IMG/VR virus record: IMGVR_UViG_3300025276_000026
Location: 1-64,000 of that record
DNA: 64,000 nucleotides
Source of the DNA: a virus
Direction: 5' to 3' (one strand)
Within the stretch, counting starts at the first letter, position 1; each line of letters begins with the position of its first letter. A program made the translations under genes and the position numbers. This document shows positions 3,089-51,392 of the stretch, in pieces. The notes below the pieces were generated by a model. The model was given only the letters and a program-made list of their open reading frames with translations. It was not told the origin of the DNA and searched no databases.

Positions 3089-3164
3089 TGGTGGAGCTGA
3101 TAGGGTTCGAACCTACGACATCCACGTTGCAAACGTGGCGCTCTCCCAACTGAGCTACAGCCCC
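3089..3164 (-). tRNA. tRNA-Ala (UGC)
   Basis: A full cloverleaf reads on the minus strand: acceptor GGGGCTG / CAGCTCC, D-arm TAGCTCAGTTGGGAGAGC, anticodon stem CCACG/CGTGG with anticodon TGC, T-arm containing GGTTCGAACC, discriminator A and an encoded CCA. Confidence 0.95.
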
Positions 3165-8667: not shown

Positions 8668-8744
8668 TGGTACAACCGACAGGACTTGAACCTGTAACCT
8701 ACTGCTTAGAAGGCAGTTGCTCTATCCAGTTGAGCTACGATTGT
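8668..8744 (-). tRNA. tRNA-Arg (UCU)
   Basis: Acceptor ACAATCG / CGGTTGT, D-arm with TAGCTCA, anticodon stem ACTGC/GCAGT with loop CTTCTAA (anticodon TCT), T-arm GGTTCAAG-type with a paired stem, discriminator A and encoded CCA. It would serve AGA codons, favoured in an AT-rich phage. Confidence 0.95.
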
Positions 8745-19495: not shown

Positions 19496-19571
19496 TGGAG
19501 CTCCCAGTCTGATTCGAACAGACCACCTAATGCTTACAAAGCATTTGCTCTACCGAATGAGCTATGGGAGC
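19496..19571 (-). tRNA. tRNA-Thr (UGU)
   Basis: Acceptor GCTCCCA / TGGGAGC, D-arm TAGCTCATTCGGTAGAGC, anticodon stem AATGC/GCATT with loop TTTGTAA (anticodon TGT), T-arm with TTCGAATC, discriminator T, encoded CCA. Confidence 0.95.
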
Positions 19572-43576: not shown

Positions 43577-44101
43577 CTAAAGATTTTTCAATATATTTTC
43601 AGGGCTTGAAACTTCATAAGGGTCGGACTCTGCATTATCAGTGTATCCTTCTTCAATGAATGCTTTTTCAATTACACCATCGTTAACAACGACTGCATAT
43701 CTCCAAGACCTATATCCGAAACCAAGATTTGATTTAGAACATTCTGCACCAATCAAATGTGTGAACTCACCATTACCATCGGGTAGTGGGTAAACATTCT
43801 TGATACCTAATGATTCAAACCATGTGTTCATAACGAATGTATCGTTAACTGAAACACAATAAATCTCATCGATTCCTTTTGCTCTGAACTCTTCGAATTT
43901 CTCTTCAAAGCCAGGCAGTTGTTGTGTAGAACATGTTGGTGTGAATGCGCCAGGCAATCCAAATATGATTACTCTTTTACCAGCAAACTGTTCTTTAGTG
44001 TCTAGTGATACAAACTCACCGTCAATTCTCTGAGGTATAATTACTTCGGGAACTGTTGTAGTCCCTTCGATAATTTCTAATCCCATTGTTACTTCTGTCA
44101 T
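43577..44101 (-). CDS. Peroxiredoxin (Prx5-like)
   Basis: The peroxidatic cysteine is in GLPGAFTPTCS, as in Prx5/AhpE-type enzymes, and the length (174 aa) is normal. It reduces peroxides using thiols. TTATGGAG precedes the ATG and it has its own promoter. The enzyme may limit oxidative stress in the infected cell. Confidence 0.88.
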   Translation of the reverse strand: MTEVTMGLEIIEGTTTVPEVIIPQRIDGEFVSLDTKEQFAGKRVIIFGLPGAFTPTCSTQQLPGFEEKFEEFRAKGIDEIYCVSVNDTFVMNTWFESLGIKNVYPLPDGNGEFTHLIGAECSKSNLGFGYRSWRYAVVVNDGVIEKAFIEEGYTDNAESDPYEVSSPENILKNL

Positions 44102-44170: not shown

Positions 44171-44608
44171 TTAAGAAATTTTGATTTCTTGAGGTTTATC
44201 TTCTTCGGGTATAATCCTTTCTAAAGACACACTCAAAATACCATTCTTCATGTCTGCACCTTTAACGACAATGTCGTCTGCAAGTGTGAATGTTCTTTTG
44301 AATGAACGAGATGCAAGTCCTCTATGGACATACTCAAGTTCTTCTCCACCCTTTTGTTTACCTTCGATAAGAAGTACATTTTTCTCTTTTGAGATTGTGA
44401 TATCTTTCTTATCAAATCCAGCCAGTGCAAGTTCGATACTGAAGTTCTCTGCATCGTGTTTTACAATATTGTAAGGTGGATAGTTTGTATTAGTCGGTGA
44501 CTGATTGGCACGTTCTAATAGTTGAAGAGTTCTGTCGAACCCGATTGCGAATGGGAATTCTTTCCCGAAATTGAAGATGTCGAAATCTCCGAGCTGTTTA
44601 CTTGTCAT
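44171..44608 (-). CDS. hsp20: Small heat-shock protein (Hsp20)
   Basis: An alpha-crystallin domain lies in the middle (ENFSIELALAGFDKKDITIS and GILSVSLER), flanked by a phage-type N-terminus and a KISQE-like tail. It holds unfolded proteins, perhaps during head assembly, and is common in T4-like marine phages. AAAGGAG precedes the start and a late box is about 50 nt upstream. Confidence 0.9.
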   Translation of the reverse strand: MTSKQLGDFDIFNFGKEFPFAIGFDRTLQLLERANQSPTNTNYPPYNIVKHDAENFSIELALAGFDKKDITISKEKNVLLIEGKQKGGEELEYVHRGLASRSFKRTFTLADDIVVKGADMKNGILSVSLERIIPEEDKPQEIKIS

Positions 44609-44667: not shown

Positions 44668-44675
44668 TATTTATA
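44668..44675 (-). promoter_or_regulatory. Late promoter TATAAATA for hsp20
   Basis: Perfect consensus with a leader of about 50 nt. The leader can fold GTAATGCCC / GGGGTTAC with a small internal loop. Confidence 0.65.
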
Positions 44676-44702: not shown

Positions 44703-46580
44703 TCAAGTCTTTTTAAGTAATCTAGTTTTACCATCGAATAATGGTGCATAGATTTTGACTGGTATCTCCTTACCTTTAACCTTGATTTCGTCGATGAACT
44801 TCCAGTCAATATCGATTTGGTCTTTGGTAAACTCTGAGAATAGAATTGGAGTATCGTATTGTCTAGTCTGAACTTCAAGTCTGGCTGCAAGGTTGACTGC
44901 ATCACCGACCACTGAGTAATCGAACCTAAGTTCTGACCCCATATTACCTACGATACATGGGCCTGTGTTGACCCCTGTGCCGATTACAACTGGTGGTAGG
45001 TCTAATCCTTCCTCTACAATATCCTTATTCATCTGTTCAGTAAGTATCTCTATTTCCATTGCAGTTCTGATAGCCATCTCTGCATGGTTCGGACAATCCA
45101 AAGGAGCATTCCAAAATGCCATTAGACAATCGCCCATATATTTGTCGACGGTTCCACCGTTCTTGATTACTATCTTAGTCATACCATCGAGGAATCTATT
45201 GATGAGTAGGACTAATCCCTCGGGGTCATCGTTTTTCATGTAAGCTTCACTGATTGGAGTGAATCCTACGATGTCTGCGAAGAGGAATGAAAGTTCCTTT
45301 CTGTCTCCACCTAATCGTAATTTAGAGGGGTCTTTTTGTAGCTCTTCAATCATGTCGGGAGATAAATACTTTTGGAACTGCTTCTTGATTTGTTGCTTTT
45401 CTTGGAAAGTCACATAGTATTTGTTAAACGAAGCATGACCGAAAACTACTAAGGAGGCCAACGATGAAAAGAAGGTATCGAAAAGAACGAGCTCTGAAGT
45501 CCAAATATAATAACTCCCGCCAATCTGGCATACTACAAGTAATAGAAACCCTGTCCCCGAAAGAACTGTGGGAAGCTTGTAAACCATCGCAAGTATCATT
45601 AGCAAAACTATCAGAAGAAGAGCAGTCTCTAGTGATTCAAGATAGTAGGATTGTTGTATTTGAACTCCTGTCAAAACGGTTTGAAGCAGGTTCGCTTGCA
45701 CTTCGTGGGGATACATTACACCCCTTGGGGTTGAAACTGGATTATTCAAACCCTCTGCGGTTAGACCCCATACAAGTATTTTATTCTCAACATTAGAATC
45801 GGGTAAGTCTACAGCAGAAATCCTTTGGAAAGTGTTCCAATAGGATATCATTACGTCACTGGTTGGAGTGGTGGTTATCGGTTTGTCTCTTCCCATCCGA
45901 ACCCACTCCACTCCAGTCTCGGGTGTGATTCTAGTTTGATAACTTGGTTGTTCTCTAAGGGCTCTTAAAGCTTCTAACATTAGTGAGGGGTACACTTCAC
46001 CGTTTGCCGTAACCAATAGTGGTACAGACCGCGTGGTACCGTCAAAATTGGGTGTTCCAGTGACCGCTGGGGTAGCCGTCACAACTCCAACTCCATAGGT
46101 GTTACTCATCAAAATTTCAATCGGACTAACAATCCCATCGAAGTTCCATAGAAAATCTTTAGGTTCCCCACCCCCAAACGTTGAGTTACCAACAAATGGT
46201 GCAGAACCTTTTTGAGTTTGTGAGGTTGGAGCAGCTCCGAGTATTGTGAGACGGTTTACTAATCCTTCTGCGAATACCGCGTCTTGTGTTGGGTCTCTAT
46301 CGGGTTTTGAAAATAGCATACCAAAAATATGAGTGTTGCTATAATGGGTATTAAGAAGCAAGTCACGATAAATCCCACGACGAATAGGATACTGTCCGTA
46401 AGTTTCAAGAGATTTTTCGTCAATGTCGACGAGAATGATGTTATCGACATAGAATTCTTCCTGTTGTTGGTGTAAGTAATCGAACCATGACCATGATATG
46501 TTCTCTATAAAATATGGGTTCCATATCTTAAGTGCAAAGAGAGCTAGTATAGTTACTAATACTGTTTTCCAAGTATACAT
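44703..46580 (-). CDS. CHASE2-domain class III adenylate cyclase
   Basis: 625 residues. An N-terminal membrane anchor (about 5-20), a CHASE2 sensor region in the periplasm (about 40-310), three membrane segments (about 315-385) and a class III cyclase domain (about 420-610). Catalytic residues are visible: D436 in FADIVGFT, K480 and D484 in DKYMGDC, D554 in RFDYSVVGD, N563 and R567. It would make cAMP (or cGMP) in response to an envelope signal. It is the last gene of the curli-like operon, immediately after a curlin-like gene. Confidence 0.9.
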   Translation of the reverse strand: MYTWKTVLVTILALFALKIWNPYFIENISWSWFDYLHQQQEEFYVDNIILVDIDEKSLETYGQYPIRRGIYRDLLLNTHYSNTHIFGMLFSKPDRDPTQDAVFAEGLVNRLTILGAAPTSQTQKGSAPFVGNSTFGGGEPKDFLWNFDGIVSPIEILMSNTYGVGVVTATPAVTGTPNFDGTTRSVPLLVTANGEVYPSLMLEALRALREQPSYQTRITPETGVEWVRMGRDKPITTTPTSDVMISYWNTFQRISAVDLPDSNVENKILVWGLTAEGLNNPVSTPRGVMYPHEVQANLLQTVLTGVQIQQSYYLESLETALLLIVLLMILAMVYKLPTVLSGTGFLLLVVCQIGGSYYIWTSELVLFDTFFSSLASLVVFGHASFNKYYVTFQEKQQIKKQFQKYLSPDMIEELQKDPSKLRLGGDRKELSFLFADIVGFTPISEAYMKNDDPEGLVLLINRFLDGMTKIVIKNGGTVDKYMGDCLMAFWNAPLDCPNHAEMAIRTAMEIEILTEQMNKDIVEEGLDLPPVVIGTGVNTGPCIVGNMGSELRFDYSVVGDAVNLAARLEVQTRQYDTPILFSEFTKDQIDIDWKFIDEIKVKGKEIPVKIYAPLFDGKTRLLKKT

Positions 46581-47384
46581 CTAGTTTTGTGTGACTGATA
46601 TATTACAACCACCTGCTGTTTGACAACTTTGAGTTAGTGTATAGTTTTGTACGCTATTACTTTGTTGAGTTAGATTTATGTTAGTTGAGTATGTTCCTGT
46701 TAGGGTTATGTTTGCGTTATGAGCTCCTGAACCACTTTGGGATATAGTACCTGTATTACCATCAACATATGATTTTAATGAAAGAGTTTTCTTTCCATCT
46801 GTTTCTTGGACTACATAAAATGAATTATCGTCTGCATACAAGTATACTGTAGCATCATGTTCTGAATAGGCATTATTGTTACCATTTCTTTGATACCCTG
46901 CTAATGCATTATTACTACCGTGGATATCTAGAGTAAGTGTCACTCCACCACCTTCATCACCGTCACTAGTAAATGTAGTATCGGATGACCCACTTAAAGT
47001 AACACCTTGACCCCATCGAACAGAATTACTGTCACCCAAGATATGAAAATCTATATTTGATTCTTTACATGAAGAACCCCTAGTGCAATTTTGTTCAAAG
47101 TGAAGTGAATTGGAATCACCATTTAAGTCTCCACCCGAACCTTGTTGAGTACCCCAAGTAGGAACAAAGGAAATAAAATTCTTGTTTCCTGTTTGTTTGA
47201 TTAGTATTTGATTTGATGCACCACCTAGTGAAAAGATAGTGTCGTTGTTGAACCCAATTTGAGTTACATTGAAGACAAGATTGTCATTGGACTGACTCCC
47301 TGTCGTTTCCACATCAACCTTGTTGTTATCGTTTGCGACAACAAACAAGGGTAACATAATTAATAATGATAAAAACTTTTTCAT
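46581..47384 (-). CDS. Curlin-like secreted fibre protein 2
   Basis: A Sec signal peptide (about 1-17) precedes a threonine/serine/asparagine-rich chain with QxGxxN-like repeats (TQIGFNN, KQTGNKN, NGNNNAY). This is the amyloid-strand pattern of curlins CsgA/CsgB, though less regular. Likely exported through CsgG. It overlaps no gene; its stop is next to the cyclase start. Confidence 0.6.
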   Translation of the reverse strand: MKKFLSLLIMLPLFVVANDNNKVDVETTGSQSNDNLVFNVTQIGFNNDTIFSLGGASNQILIKQTGNKNFISFVPTWGTQQGSGGDLNGDSNSLHFEQNCTRGSSCKESNIDFHILGDSNSVRWGQGVTLSGSSDTTFTSDGDEGGGVTLTLDIHGSNNALAGYQRNGNNNAYSEHDATVYLYADDNSFYVVQETDGKKTLSLKSYVDGNTGTISQSGSGAHNANITLTGTYSTNINLTQQSNSVQNYTLTQSCQTAGGCNISVTQN

Positions 47385-47391
47385 AATCCTT

Positions 47392-47538
47392 TTAGATTAA
47401 CCATTGAAACAATAAGCATAAAATAACTCCTTCAGAAAATGATAACCAATACATATGGTAATCATCTAGTCGCATAGCTTTTTGAAATCCAAAGATTTGG
47501 TTCTCATGCCATACACGGAATTTTTCTGATATGTTCAT
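47392..47538 (-). CDS. Small membrane peptide, 48 aa
   Basis: Frame from ATG 47538 (CTAGGAG upstream) to TAA 47392 between FecR and the curlin-like gene. The C-terminal half is hydrophobic (SFSEGVILCLLFQWLI). Its place in the operon suggests an export or regulatory helper. Confidence 0.55.
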   Translation of the reverse strand: MNISEKFRVWHENQIFGFQKAMRLDDYHMYWLSFSEGVILCLLFQWLI

Positions 47539-47546
47539 ATATTCTC

Positions 47547-48686
47547 CTAGTTTGTTTGTGTGATGGTAATATTTAGAGACGAACCATCACCCACCTGTAT
47601 TGATGACTCTTTTTCGTCTGTTATGGTTCTAATGGATGCTTGTGCAAACATCGGTAACTTAATAGATATAATTCCATTAACTTCCCTGTAGAACCATATT
47701 TGACCAAGACCCTTGTCTACAATAGTAGAATATTGTGTGTCTTTGTCAAAGCCTGGCAGAGTTCCGTCAATACGAACCACTCCGAAGGCATTAGATTGTT
47801 GTCTGTCGAGACCAACCTTACGGTCAATGTCTAAAACTACATCTAATAAATCTTGTAAGAAATCGACATCAAGTAAATCTCTGTCGAGCTCTGTGTATTC
47901 TAACTCATCATCTTCAAAGTACTGTTCTTCCAAGTCATTAAACTCTAGGAAGTCCACGTCAAGAACGTTACTTGTATCGTTCTCTTTACTACTCTGTTCT
48001 TCTGCAACCTGTTTGTTCACCTCTTCGGGTGGACTGACAATGAATAAGTTGTCAATCAAGTTGGGTGTAATTCCATTAACCACTATTGGTTTAGTTGGTG
48101 AATCATCGTATGTAGAAACCATTGTTGCTTGATACGCTTCATCCAATAATACCTGTCCGCCTGCATTACTAACTAGGATACTTCCCGAAGGAGCTCCCCA
48201 TTTATCGGGTAGCAGTATCACAAGTGACCTTCCGATTTCATCAATAGATGTTGTGAAGTCGGTGCCGTTAACTGTTATCTGTGCAGTCGGTGTAGTTATA
48301 TTTATGTTAGCTTTCTTAATCTTTCCACCAAAACCCGAAGCAAATCGAGCGGTGCCTTGTGCCATACGAATGGCCATCTTGGACTTTGAAGGGTCGGGGT
48401 CATAGTAAACCTCGTCTATCCATACCTTTGAATGTTCTGTTAAATCCAGTTGTTCCGTACCTTGGAATTGGATTTTCATTCTGCCGTTCTGAGTCTGTGC
48501 TGTATCATACATCAGCACATCGGATTCATCTGTTGCAGATATCACGGAAGTTTCTCCGTCTCTCTGAAGACCAGCTGAACCCTTGTATTCGATAATCTGA
48601 CCTATCGGTTCACCATATGATAGTGAACTGATAAGTAAGAGATTAACTATCGTTGTCGTCTTTCTGAATAATGTCGATGTTAGCAT
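47547..48686 (-). CDS. FecR-domain protein with signal peptide
   Basis: A 379-aa periplasmic protein. The signal sequence (about 1-25) is followed by the FecR pattern: EYKGSAGLQRDGE, a DLTEHSKVWIDEV beta strand and NINITTPTAQITVNGTDFTTS (the TPxAxxxVxGTxF motif), then an acidic region and a C-terminal beta domain. FecR proteins usually sense and relay envelope signals. Such genes occur beside CHASE2 cyclases in bacteria. It overlaps the curlin-like gene by 44 nt. Confidence 0.8.
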   Translation of the reverse strand: MLTSTLFRKTTTIVNLLLISSLSYGEPIGQIIEYKGSAGLQRDGETSVISATDESDVLMYDTAQTQNGRMKIQFQGTEQLDLTEHSKVWIDEVYYDPDPSKSKMAIRMAQGTARFASGFGGKIKKANINITTPTAQITVNGTDFTTSIDEIGRSLVILLPDKWGAPSGSILVSNAGGQVLLDEAYQATMVSTYDDSPTKPIVVNGITPNLIDNLFIVSPPEEVNKQVAEEQSSKENDTSNVLDVDFLEFNDLEEQYFEDDELEYTELDRDLLDVDFLQDLLDVVLDIDRKVGLDRQQSNAFGVVRIDGTLPGFDKDTQYSTIVDKGLGQIWFYREVNGIISIKLPMFAQASIRTITDEKESSIQVGDGSSLNITITQTN

Positions 48687-49374
48687 TAGAGGTCACAAAT
48701 GATACGTCAATGATACCACTACAAGATTGACCACTCGGACAACTTGTATCTGAACCACTCTTCTGAATGATATCAATATCATTGCCTGAACCAGTTAAGA
48801 TTGCAGTGATTTTATTATCAGTCGCGTCAGCTTGAATGGTATTAATGTCGTTTGATGAACCACTTACAGTCCAGTTCCAAACAGCATTATCCGAATCAAC
48901 TTTGGTTGTGAATACGTTACTTGAACCACCTACTACTAAGTCCCAGTTTAAGTATTCTGCTGATGCAGTGTAACCGACATCTATATCAAACGTGTTAGAT
49001 GAACCTGTTACAGCACCTGCCATGTTTAAGTTGTCTGCACTACCTTGATAACCTATGTTCCAATCCATTGAGTTCGAACCACCAGTAAATGTTAAATTTA
49101 CTGTTGAACTATCTGCAATGAAAGGGCCGTATAGTTTGTTGACATCACCAAATTGTACTAGTGTGAAACTGTTGTTTGCACCAGTAAGAATCATGTCAGC
49201 AGATGTTCCCGAGAAATTATCTAAACCGACTTTGTTTCCGTAACCTTTCTGAGTGAAGTTCAACGTTAGGGCTGTACCACTTTGTTGTAACCATATTTCG
49301 TTATCGTCTGCTCCTGCAAATGCAGTAGTCGATAATCCTAATGTTAACATAATCAATAATAATTTATTCTTCAT
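48643..49374 (-). CDS. Curlin-like secreted fibre protein 1
   Basis: A Sec signal (about 1-20, ending AFA) precedes repeats with QxGxxN and SxxNxF features (TQKGYGNKV, VQFGDVNK, GSSNVF). A beta-solenoid, curlin-like protein is likely. It is directly downstream of csgG and is probably its cargo. It overlaps csgG by 11 nt. Confidence 0.65.
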   Translation of the reverse strand: MKNKLLLIMLTLGLSTTAFAGADDNEIWLQQSGTALTLNFTQKGYGNKVGLDNFSGTSADMILTGANNSFTLVQFGDVNKLYGPFIADSSTVNLTFTGGSNSMDWNIGYQGSADNLNMAGAVTGSSNTFDIDVGYTASAEYLNWDLVVGGSSNVFTTKVDSDNAVWNWTVSGSSNDINTIQADATDNKITAILTGSGNDIDIIQKSGSDTSCPSGQSCSGIIDVSFVTSNANIDIIQKDDNDS

Positions 49375-50272
49375 GTTTTTCTCCTATTGAATGTAACTCG
49401 TTTCTTCCATGTGTTCCATGGGGGTGACGATGTTCATCTTTAATTACCCAAAAACTTCTATCGTGTCCTTGGTATATTAGTTCTAGAACGGCAAGTTCAA
49501 TTGCTGAACGTGTTGCTTTCGTAACACCTTCATTTTCTGCTCTGCCATCTTCCATTTCAATTAACTTCGTATCCATATCAACGAAGCGGAATACATCATA
49601 ACCACCACCTGTACTTAGAATCGTTTTCTGAGTCTGTACATTCAGTAAAATCTCACCAGTTAAAGTTGATATTCCTCTCAACGATACGGTGATAACATCC
49701 CTACGATATGAAATAGAACTGCCAATACCTAAGTATCTTGCGCCTCTTCCACCGCTTTCGATGTTCGAATCATAACCAATAATCCCACCTTCCAGTAGGA
49801 TTCCTGCGAAGAGCAAGGGTTGAATTCCTGTTGGGGAACCCTCATTACCTTCCTGTTCTGCAAAACTTTCTCTAGTAGAACGAATGATTTGACGCTCTCT
49901 TACTAGTGCATCTAAACTTGTTCTCTCTACTACTCTAAACCATTTACCCTTCCCTGCTGTCTTAAGTGCATCAATCAAAAATGATTCAGCTCCTTGTGTG
50001 ACTGCAGTGGAGAAAGATGCAATTCCATCTTTACTCTTACGTTGTCCTGTCTTATCCATGAAAGCGTAGACTGCAACGACTGGCATTACATCTGCTGGTG
50101 GTAACAGTAACAACTCTTTATAAGTAGGTATATTTACTACTTCTGCCTTCTCAATGCACTCACCCACCTTACTCATTACAAGAGAGGTGCAACTGTCGGT
50201 CATAGACGGAATACTTGCACACCCAGTGGTGAACAAGACCGTTATCAGTCCTATAATTGCCCATTGCTTCAT
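49364..50272 (-). CDS. csgG: CsgG curli-secretion channel
   Basis: A lipoprotein signal (TTGC, Cys18) is followed by conserved CsgG blocks: VAVYAFMDKTGQRKS, FSTAVTQGAES, VVERTSLDALVRERQIIRSTR, PLLFAGILLEGGIIGYDSN and GGRGARYLGIG. CsgG forms a nonameric outer-membrane pore that exports curlin. The length (302 aa) matches. csgF is the gene just upstream. Confidence 0.95.
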   Translation of the reverse strand: MKQWAIIGLITVLFTTGCASIPSMTDSCTSLVMSKVGECIEKAEVVNIPTYKELLLLPPADVMPVVAVYAFMDKTGQRKSKDGIASFSTAVTQGAESFLIDALKTAGKGKWFRVVERTSLDALVRERQIIRSTRESFAEQEGNEGSPTGIQPLLFAGILLEGGIIGYDSNIESGGRGARYLGIGSSISYRRDVITVSLRGISTLTGEILLNVQTQKTILSTGGGYDVFRFVDMDTKLIEMEDGRAENEGVTKATRSAIELAVLELIYQGHDRSFWVIKDEHRHPHGTHGRNELHSIGEKHEE

Positions 50273-50767
50273 TTAGAAACTTCCTGTACCAACTGGTATA
50301 TCTAAAATCGTTGTTGTCCCATCCTCGGTCACTATCGTTAATCGAATGAAGTCTACTCCATCCTCTCCAGTCATCCTTTCATATGTGACTGTATTACCTT
50401 CCATTACGAAAGTACCGTAGGCAGCTGCTGTTCCGTTAGAGAACATGTTCTCTACTAACTGTTTTGCTAACTGAGCATAAATTCTGCTCTCTACGTTTCT
50501 TAAAAATTTTGCAAGTGTTGTGTTCTGTGCTTCTCTGTCTGCCTTTGCAATGGCATCTTCTAAATCTTGTTTTATCTTATCACGTCTAGACTTCTCTTGA
50601 TTTTCTATAGTCAAATAGTGAGCAGATATCCCTATCCCATTAAAGGATGGACTCTTAAACTTGTGTACTATCTCGTCTGCATTGGCATAGTTGATACCAA
50701 GACCACATGCTGTTACCAACATTATTAGTCTTACAACGTGCAATTTACTTTCTATTTTTCTCAACAT
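50273..50767 (-). CDS. csgF: CsgF curli-assembly factor
   Basis: A signal peptide (about 1-30) precedes the CsgF-type start FKSPSFNGIG (compare FRNPNFGG of bacterial CsgF) and a downstream beta region with DIPVGTGSF. CsgF forms a second constriction on the CsgG pore and anchors the fibre nucleator. It lies 1 nt from csgG and 22 nt inside the upstream membrane gene. Confidence 0.85.
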   Translation of the reverse strand: MLRKIESKLHVVRLIMLVTACGLGINYANADEIVHKFKSPSFNGIGISAHYLTIENQEKSRRDKIKQDLEDAIAKADREAQNTTLAKFLRNVESRIYAQLAKQLVENMFSNGTAAAYGTFVMEGNTVTYERMTGEDGVDFIRLTIVTEDGTTTILDIPVGTGSF

Positions 50768-51020
50768 TCTGTGACTCCTGCTTCTTGCTGTTCTCTTTCA
50801 TTTCGAGAACCACATTTACTTTCTGCTGTAAACGGATTAAATCTTGGTCTAACATTCTGACTTGGTCAATAACTTTAATCAATGCAAAATGCTGTTTCTC
50901 TATCTCGGGTTCTAGTTTTTCACCTACGAACCACCAAATAAAATATATGAAATATCCTAGACCCACCATCATTACAATTGGGAATCCGTAATCAGATATT
51001 ACTTGAACGAGACCTTCCAT
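50745..51020 (-). CDS. Small membrane coiled-coil protein A
   Basis: One N-terminal membrane segment (about 13-32) followed by a coiled coil, similar in plan to its upstream neighbour. Paralogue pair by architecture. A holin-like or channel-gating role beside CsgG/CsgF is possible; not shown by sequence. Confidence 0.6.
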   Translation of the reverse strand: MEGLVQVISDYGFPIVMMVGLGYFIYFIWWFVGEKLEPEIEKQHFALIKVIDQVRMLDQDLIRLQQKVNVVLEMKENSKKQESQNVEKNRK

Positions 51021-51317
51021 TTAGTCTCTCCTTACATCTAGTTTACCGTCTTCTATAAAGTTCTCTGCTCTTGCAACCCTGTCTATATCGGGTCTAAGTT
51101 CTAACGCTGCAGAGACTAGTAAATCTATCTTAATCATTTCATTGGACATTGTTCTTGCACGATTCTCTAGGGATGTACAGAACATTGTAAGGGTTTTGAT
51201 ATCATCAACAACACCTTCAAGTATTTGTTTTATGACAAGGAATATGAAAAAGCCCATTACTAAACTTCCAGCAATCGGAGCTCCCACTTCACCTATCAAT
51301 ACAAATATATCATTCAT
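51021..51317 (-). CDS. Small membrane coiled-coil protein B
   Basis: The N-terminus MNDIFVLIGEVGAPIAGSLV leads into one membrane segment, then a coiled coil with repeated M/L/I. It is the first gene of the curli-like operon. The ATG is exactly five bases after CATAAATA with no ribosome site, so a leaderless start is predicted. Confidence 0.65.
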   Translation of the reverse strand: MNDIFVLIGEVGAPIAGSLVMGFFIFLVIKQILEGVVDDIKTLTMFCTSLENRARTMSNEMIKIDLLVSAALELRPDIDRVARAENFIEDGKLDVRRD

Positions 51318-51322
51318 GCATT

Positions 51323-51330
51323 TATTTATG
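51323..51330 (-). promoter_or_regulatory. Late box CATAAATA, 5 nt before ATG of the curli operon
   Basis: CATAAATA, AATGC, ATG at 51317. The only promoter-like element visible for the operon; it lies just downstream of a terminator. Confidence 0.6.
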
Positions 51331-51363: not shown

Positions 51364-51392
51364 AAAAAAAAGAGACGTTTCCATCTCTTTTT
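51364..51392 (-). terminator. Rho-independent terminator
   Basis: Minus strand: an 11-bp stem (AAAAAGAGATG / CGTCTCTTTTT, one G-T pair) with a GAAA tetraloop, followed by T-run. It ends the regA-side transcript and insulates the curli-like operon. Confidence 0.9.

Follow-up and report, generated by a model that had tools for sequence, protein, structure and literature searches.

A curli-type secretion operon with FecR and CHASE2 adenylate cyclase genes in a T4-like virus, with a predicted late promoter and an exchanged cargo gene

Curli-type (type VIII) secretion genes have been described in marine phages. CsgF and CsgG were reported by Zaragoza-Solas 2020 (PMC7029224) and Buchholz 2022 (PMC9004378), and Wittmers et al. 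2022 described a module with FecR and adenylate cyclase (AC) genes in conserved order in pelagiphage podoviruses and myoviruses (PMC9599517). The module occurs widely among marine viruses, and several published guesses at its purpose compete. Here we describe such an operon in a 64,000-nucleotide stretch of viral DNA, positions 1 to 64,000 of IMG/VR record IMGVR_UViG_3300025276_000026 (the window). The record is that of a 97-kb marine T4-like virus encoding a gp43 polymerase, clamp loader, UvsX, portal, major head protein, sheath and terminase; the polymerases closest to its gp43 are those of cyanophages (48%). We propose, with a probability of roughly 0.55, that the phage transcribes this type VIII secretion operon late and with it displays curlin-type proteins on the host surface, monitored by the FecR protein and the cyclase. 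The operon is real and mostly known; its promoter, the tail of its FecR protein, its swapped cargo gene and the existence of chromosomal copies are additions.

Nine minus-strand open reading frames, each abutting or overlapping the next, occupy positions 44703-51317. In 5' to 3' order of transcription they are:

SM1, 51021-51317, minus strand: 98 aa, N-terminal transmembrane (TM) segment and coiled coil, phrog_18771
SM2, 50745-51020, minus strand: 91 aa, SM1 paralogue, N-terminal TM segment and coiled coil, phrog_18771
CsgF, 50273-50767, minus strand: Pfam CsgF 9e-13, signal peptide, CsgG-docking motif F-x-[NS]-P-x-F
CsgG, 49364-50272, minus strand: outer-membrane secretion pore, Pfam CsgG 2e-47
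Cur1, 48643-49374, minus strand: conserved curlin-like subunit with a Sec signal, assigned from its GxxN repeat, AlphaFold2 and NCBIfam
FecR-domain protein, 47547-48686, minus strand: secreted, assigned from Pfam FecR (2e-9), AlphaFold2, a Foldseek match to PupR and tail conservation
TM48, 47392-47538, minus strand: 48 aa, single C-terminal hydrophobic segment
Cur2, 46581-47384, minus strand: variable curlin-like cargo, assigned from NCBIfam CsgB, swapping and its C-terminal C-x5-C / VSVTQ end
CHASE2 adenylate cyclase, 44703-46580, minus strand: Pfam CHASE2 3e-29, Guanylate_cyc 9e-16, active-site alignment

This layout agrees in every gene with the initial annotation, and the identities proposed there also stand, through Pfam models for CHASE2/cyclase, FecR, CsgG and CsgF and NCBIfam CsgB/CsgA models for the curlin-like pair. 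The gene order SM-SM-CsgF-CsgG-Cur-FecR-(TM48)-Cur-AC recurs in dozens of IMG/VR viral contigs (42 relatives were gathered for CsgG and 114 for the cyclase, 80 of the latter being retained), and the ratio of nonsynonymous to synonymous substitution rates (dN/dS) is mostly 0.04-0.22; the order is thus not a product of chance. The suggestion that the complete unit might be new must be given up: the published order CsgF-CsgG-CsgA/B-FecR-CsgA/B-AC (PMC9599517) is present in this phage, the records of HTVC008M and Melnitz show the gene order of the operon, and its core order is found on three bacterial contigs, as discussed below.

Two features precede the first gene:

Intrinsic-terminator-like hairpin, 51364-51392, minus strand: 9-bp stem AAAAAGAGA/TCTCTTTTT, read from the sequence
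T4-type late promoter motif CATAAATA, 51323-51330, minus strand: first base 13 nt 5' of the first start codon

The hairpin had been taken for a strong terminator bounding the operon. It is real, but it sits upstream (5') of the operon and closes the preceding transcription unit; it has fewer than three G-C pairs and is hence unlisted by the terminator scan. Hairpins of differing sequence also precede the late-promoter motif in homologous loci. In the window, CATAAATA follows the hairpin in the direction of transcription, and the late promoter of T4-like cyanophages is NATAAATA (PMC2984593), a match to which lies upstream of the operon. The record has five sites with the pattern YATAAATA-N5-ATG, always on the coding strand, against none in a reversed control, and one of the five belongs to the portal gene with spacing identical to that of the operon. 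Among 53 non-redundant loci, 32 carry the late motif within 45 nt upstream of the first gene, 21 of them at exactly -13, compared with a mean of about 1.1 and a maximum of 8 in 500 shuffles. The T4-type motif at its start, with portal-gene spacing, indicates that the operon is transcribed late in infection. Given that about one helical turn separates a T4 late TATA box from the start site 3' of it, the first mRNA of the operon may be nearly leaderless. A 2025 paper on a pelagiphage transcriptome contains no curli data.

The core of a type VIII secretion system is present. CsgG also matches the NCBIfam CsgG model (1e-49) and its lipoprotein cysteine C18 is invariant in the alignment, and the N-terminal docking segment of CsgF keeps its motif in 90 of 93 copies; the CsgF region holding this motif was reported as CsgG-binding (PMC12311626). 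SM1 and SM2 are paralogues from a family of 83-122 aa proteins with a single TM segment and a coiled coil, and SM1 has a conserved ...RRD end. The published label of histidine kinase fails for these genes, because no Pfam kinase domain was matched and histidine is wholly absent from the window copy of SM1, from 75 of 79 SM1-type proteins and from 88 of 160 SM proteins overall. A profile search of the PDB with these small first proteins gave weak coiled-coil matches only. TM48, located between FecR and Cur2, is conserved in 60 related loci and confined to the subgroup of the window; it ends in a hydrophobic stretch, and its LDDY and EGV residues are conserved.

Both curlin-like proteins match the NCBIfam CsgB/CsgA models (1.4e-5 for Cur2 with CsgB, and 8e-4), below the cut-offs of those models. 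With Pfam Curlin_rpt, Cur2 of the window scores 0.05, under the Pfam cut-off, and Cur1 gives no match; this model is found in 24 of 49 Cur2 relatives, with a best value of 1.4e-17, which identifies the cargo as curlin-repeat protein. Cur1 has near-invariant G-x-x-N motifs at alignment columns 76, 98, 124, 150 and 172, a repeat of 22-26 residues, and is modelled by AlphaFold2 as a regular strand repeat (mean predicted local distance difference test, pLDDT, 81.7). Nearly all copies of Cur1 (67/69) and Cur2 (60/62) end in a curlin strand of the type found in the FecR tail described below. As a separate observation, the second curlin of HTVC008M, AGE60352.1 (L001:7649-8971), which is annotated as 'hypothetical protein', contains a PA14 domain and five curlin repeats.

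The two cargo genes differ in how they vary. Across 70 operons, Cur1 identity correlates with that of FecR (r 0.94) and AC (0.79), and the correlation is lower for Cur2 (0.66). Operon pairs with 90-95% identity in Cur1 and 81-97% in FecR and AC are just 30-33% identical in Cur2; conversely, the window and locus L107 share 78% identity in Cur2 and 42% in Cur1. In most pairs examined, DNA identity drops and then recovers at the ends of the Cur2 gene, although in the pair L029/L027 the divergent stretch reaches past it. The C terminus of Cur2 is conserved, including two invariant cysteines (C254, C260). Judged by these identity patterns, Cur2 is an exchanged cassette, a single cargo gene swapped between otherwise near-identical operons, and such exchange would fit a role in specificity better than that of a mere pore.

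The FecR protein consists of a signal-peptide-like N terminus, a FecR domain that Foldseek finds similar to the signalling domain of PupR, a disordered linker modelled by AlphaFold2 with low confidence, and a C-terminal strand domain with a pLDDT of about 90. In the window it terminates in ITITQTN, a strand of the curlin-type pattern hydrophobic-x-hydrophobic-x-Q, and the Ile and Gln of this tail are near invariant. Of 42 non-redundant FecR proteins linked to curli, 41 have the strand within their final 10 residues, where the in-protein rate of the pattern predicts about 1.6; the exception is a Hyphomonas copy, which has no tail. FecR copies are homologous, and these counts are therefore not independent. 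Stronger evidence comes from the contrast with short Caulobacterales FecR proteins unlinked to curli, none of ten having the tail, and three of these adjoin a match to the cyclase model. The cytoplasmic anti-sigma part and single TM segment of a FecR sigma regulator were not found, the signal-peptide-like N terminus running straight into the FecR domain, and no other domain was detected. A function of this protein as an iron regulator is unsupported, given that the anti-sigma part was not seen.

The cyclase has the residues of a class III enzyme. Metal-binding D436 and D484 and adenine-binding K480 are present in all 102 aligned phage copies, the further adenine residue D554 in 94, and the transition-state residues N563 and R567 in 92 and 100. 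Base-pocket residues are altered in about 8 copies (D554 to S, N563 to S). We note a subgroup, including Melnitz (L002), L135 and L147, with Ser in place of both the adenine-pocket Asp and the transition-state Asn; these enzymes may make another product or have low activity. Conservation of the catalytic residues makes it plausible that the phage cyclase raises cyclic AMP (cAMP), as had been suggested from the outset.

The observations made here are the identities, order and conservation of the genes, the promoter motif, the tail of FecR, the swapping of Cur2 and the active-site residues of the cyclase; from them we infer secretion, surface display, FecR-cyclase coupling and a benefit to the phage along the following lines. 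The late programme of the phage would transcribe the operon from the T4-type late promoter, and the Sec route would take Cur1, Cur2 and the FecR protein into the periplasm. CsgG would form the outer-membrane pore, with CsgF docked in it. Cur1 would be the conserved curlin-type subunit and Cur2 the exchangeable one conferring specificity on the surface structure, so that infected cells would carry on their surface a layer or fibre of the phage's choosing. Excluding competing phages or holding cells together would be the likeliest benefit. The FecR protein would be partly retained in the periplasm, where its C-terminal curlin-type strand could join the path of the curlins or read it. The FecR domain would signal the export state to CHASE2, the periplasmic domain of the cyclase, and the cyclase would in response make cAMP. 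The idea that the phage exports its own curlin-like cargo in connection with a FecR/CHASE2 sensor, already put forward in the initial annotation, thus gains support.

More tentatively, the FecR protein could be a built-in gauge of export, its tail being captured by or templating the growing curlin structure and the CHASE2 cyclase being informed of the outcome. Cur2 could be an interchangeable module that sets specificity and evolves under diversifying selection, similar to the tip of a tail fibre but placed on the surface of the infected host, where it would keep rival phages out or retain chosen neighbours. We regard this elaboration as possible but doubtful. If true, the surface display that the phage operates late in infection would monitor itself.

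Several results weigh against late, monitored surface display. The phage record has no match to PF10627, the periplasmic gate CsgE, which was also reported absent from other phage modules (PMC9599517). Structure prediction of a curlin-like protein, an early recommendation, yielded the strand repeat of Cur1, but Foldseek of this model against the PDB returned nothing significant, with a beta-helix as the best match (E 0.28) and CsgA at E 2.2. Clumping was not seen in Melnitz-infected cells (PMC9004378). The cAMP proposal also has a gap: no cyclic nucleotide monophosphate (cNMP)-binding domain, as in a cAMP receptor, was found in the phage record, and only 11 of 151 genomes of Pelagibacter, which hosts the best-known relatives of this phage, encode one. 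The output of the cyclase is therefore unexplained. Finally, the 97-kb record is possibly partial.

Other explanations account for parts of these data. CsgF-gated CsgG could act like a pinholin or secretin and open an outer-membrane pore late in infection at a time set by the sensor, an explanation put forward for Melnitz (PMC9004378). The late promoter would suit lysis timing, the CsgE gate is absent, and the operon is headed by two small TM coiled-coil proteins, one of which, SM2, has a weak PHROG holin match (0.0017). Timed pore opening at lysis, which was also among the uses listed at first, is nevertheless less favoured because it leaves the swapped, hypervariable cargo gene unexplained, as it does the conservation of two curlin-like proteins and the kept CsgF docking motif. 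Moreover, the Melnitz proposal relied on the absence of csgA and csgB stated in that paper, whereas the Melnitz record annotates two curlin-repeat proteins, both above the Pfam cut-off; we consider a lysis device unlikely. The missing CsgE would equally agree with an open CsgG that admits larger nutrients or cofactors, such as cobalamin or siderophores, into a starving host, as proposed in PMC9599517 and PMC7029224. Transcription is indicated to be late rather than early, however, the cargo genes are conserved and swapped, and a secreted FecR-domain protein with no recognised anti-sigma part leaves the link to iron unsupported, which makes uptake very improbable.

Alternatively, the second messenger itself could be the point, with cAMP or another cyclic nucleotide acting on host physiology or in defence and counter-defence and the curli parts serving as a sensor trigger. 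About 100 phage copies keep a cyclase with an intact active site, the signal would be new to a Pelagibacter cell, as no class III cyclase was found in the 151 genomes, and the product may differ in the approximately eight copies with changed base-pocket residues. The absence of a reader from the phage record and the scarcity of readers in Pelagibacter count against this explanation as well, and AC is missing from some of the published viral operons (PMC9599517); we judge it improbable. The published guesses are narrowed toward late surface display with specificity by the late promoter, by cargo swapping and by the curlin-type strand of the sensor.

Directly 3' of the operon, as in many related viral loci, are genes for Hsp20 (44171-44608) and a peroxiredoxin-like protein (43577-44101), preceded by a further motif:

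TATAAATA motif between the cyclase and Hsp20 genes, 44668-44675, minus strand: from a motif search

The TATAAATA motif at 44675 likely marks the start of a next, separate late unit comprising these two genes. Elsewhere in the window, tRNA-Ala(TGC) (3089-3164), tRNA-Arg(TCT) (8668-8744) and tRNA-Thr(TGT) (19496-19571) are possible clues to the host.

The order csgF-csgG-curlin(s)-FecR-CHASE2 AC is also present on three bacterial contigs, L132 and L133 from Caulobacteraceae metagenome-assembled genomes (MAGs) and L134 from Hyphomonas sp. TMED17 (706 kb). Unlike the phage operons, these have bacterial flanks and lack SM1/SM2 and TM48, and no late motif was found within 110 nt upstream of them; like the phage protein, the Caulobacteraceae FecR ends in a curlin-type strand. 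Sampling 398 genomes from the order of these MAGs and 385 from the class turned up full-length FecR relatives in no genome but the three that bear the operon, which speaks against the operon being common in bacterial chromosomes. In the CsgG tree, phages and the three chromosomal copies group together to the exclusion of other bacterial CsgG (100/99); within this clade the chromosomal copies nest beside the phage group of the window (99/92) and apart from the HTVC008M group. This topology would be compatible with either one gain from bacteria followed by a return to bacteria, or two gains. Phage-type operons were also seen on seven contigs (L126, L127, L128, L130, L136, L144 and L147) binned in Bacteroidota, cyanobacterial and Rhodobacteraceae MAGs, and these are most likely misplaced phage contigs. 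A 1.5-kb 'Salmonella phage' record encoding CsgG, OR851715.1, is probably host DNA.

In conclusion, the operon is closest to the pelagiphage module of HTVC008M and HTVC023P-type podoviruses, with which it shares the order small protein(s)-CsgF-CsgG-CsgA/B-FecR-CsgA/B-adenylate cyclase (PMC9599517). It differs in its distinct CsgG subgroup (46% identity to HTVC008M), its additional TM48 gene, and first small proteins that are not histidine kinases. We found no mention of a late promoter, FecR tail or Cur2 swapping in the parts of PMC9599517 consulted, and no paper on these or on the chromosomal copies in a search that covered few subscription journals or preprints. The 'incomplete curli' operon of methylophage Melnitz (PMC9004378) has the same gene order as the window. 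Bacterial pairs of FecR and CHASE2 cyclase likewise consist of a secreted FecR-domain protein adjoining a CHASE2 cyclase, but the unlinked FecR copies have no curlin-type tail and no curli genes in the surrounding stretch retrieved. With the csg operons of E. coli and Alphaproteobacteria the phage operon has CsgG, CsgF and curlin-repeat proteins in common; it lacks CsgE and CsgD, and FecR and a CHASE2 cyclase are added. Neither FecR nor AC was found at the other bacterial curli loci retrieved (L140-L205, except the phage-type L144 and L147). The three chromosomal copies thus represent a bacterial form of the FecR-cyclase-curli link, which the literature calls absent from canonical bacterial operons.

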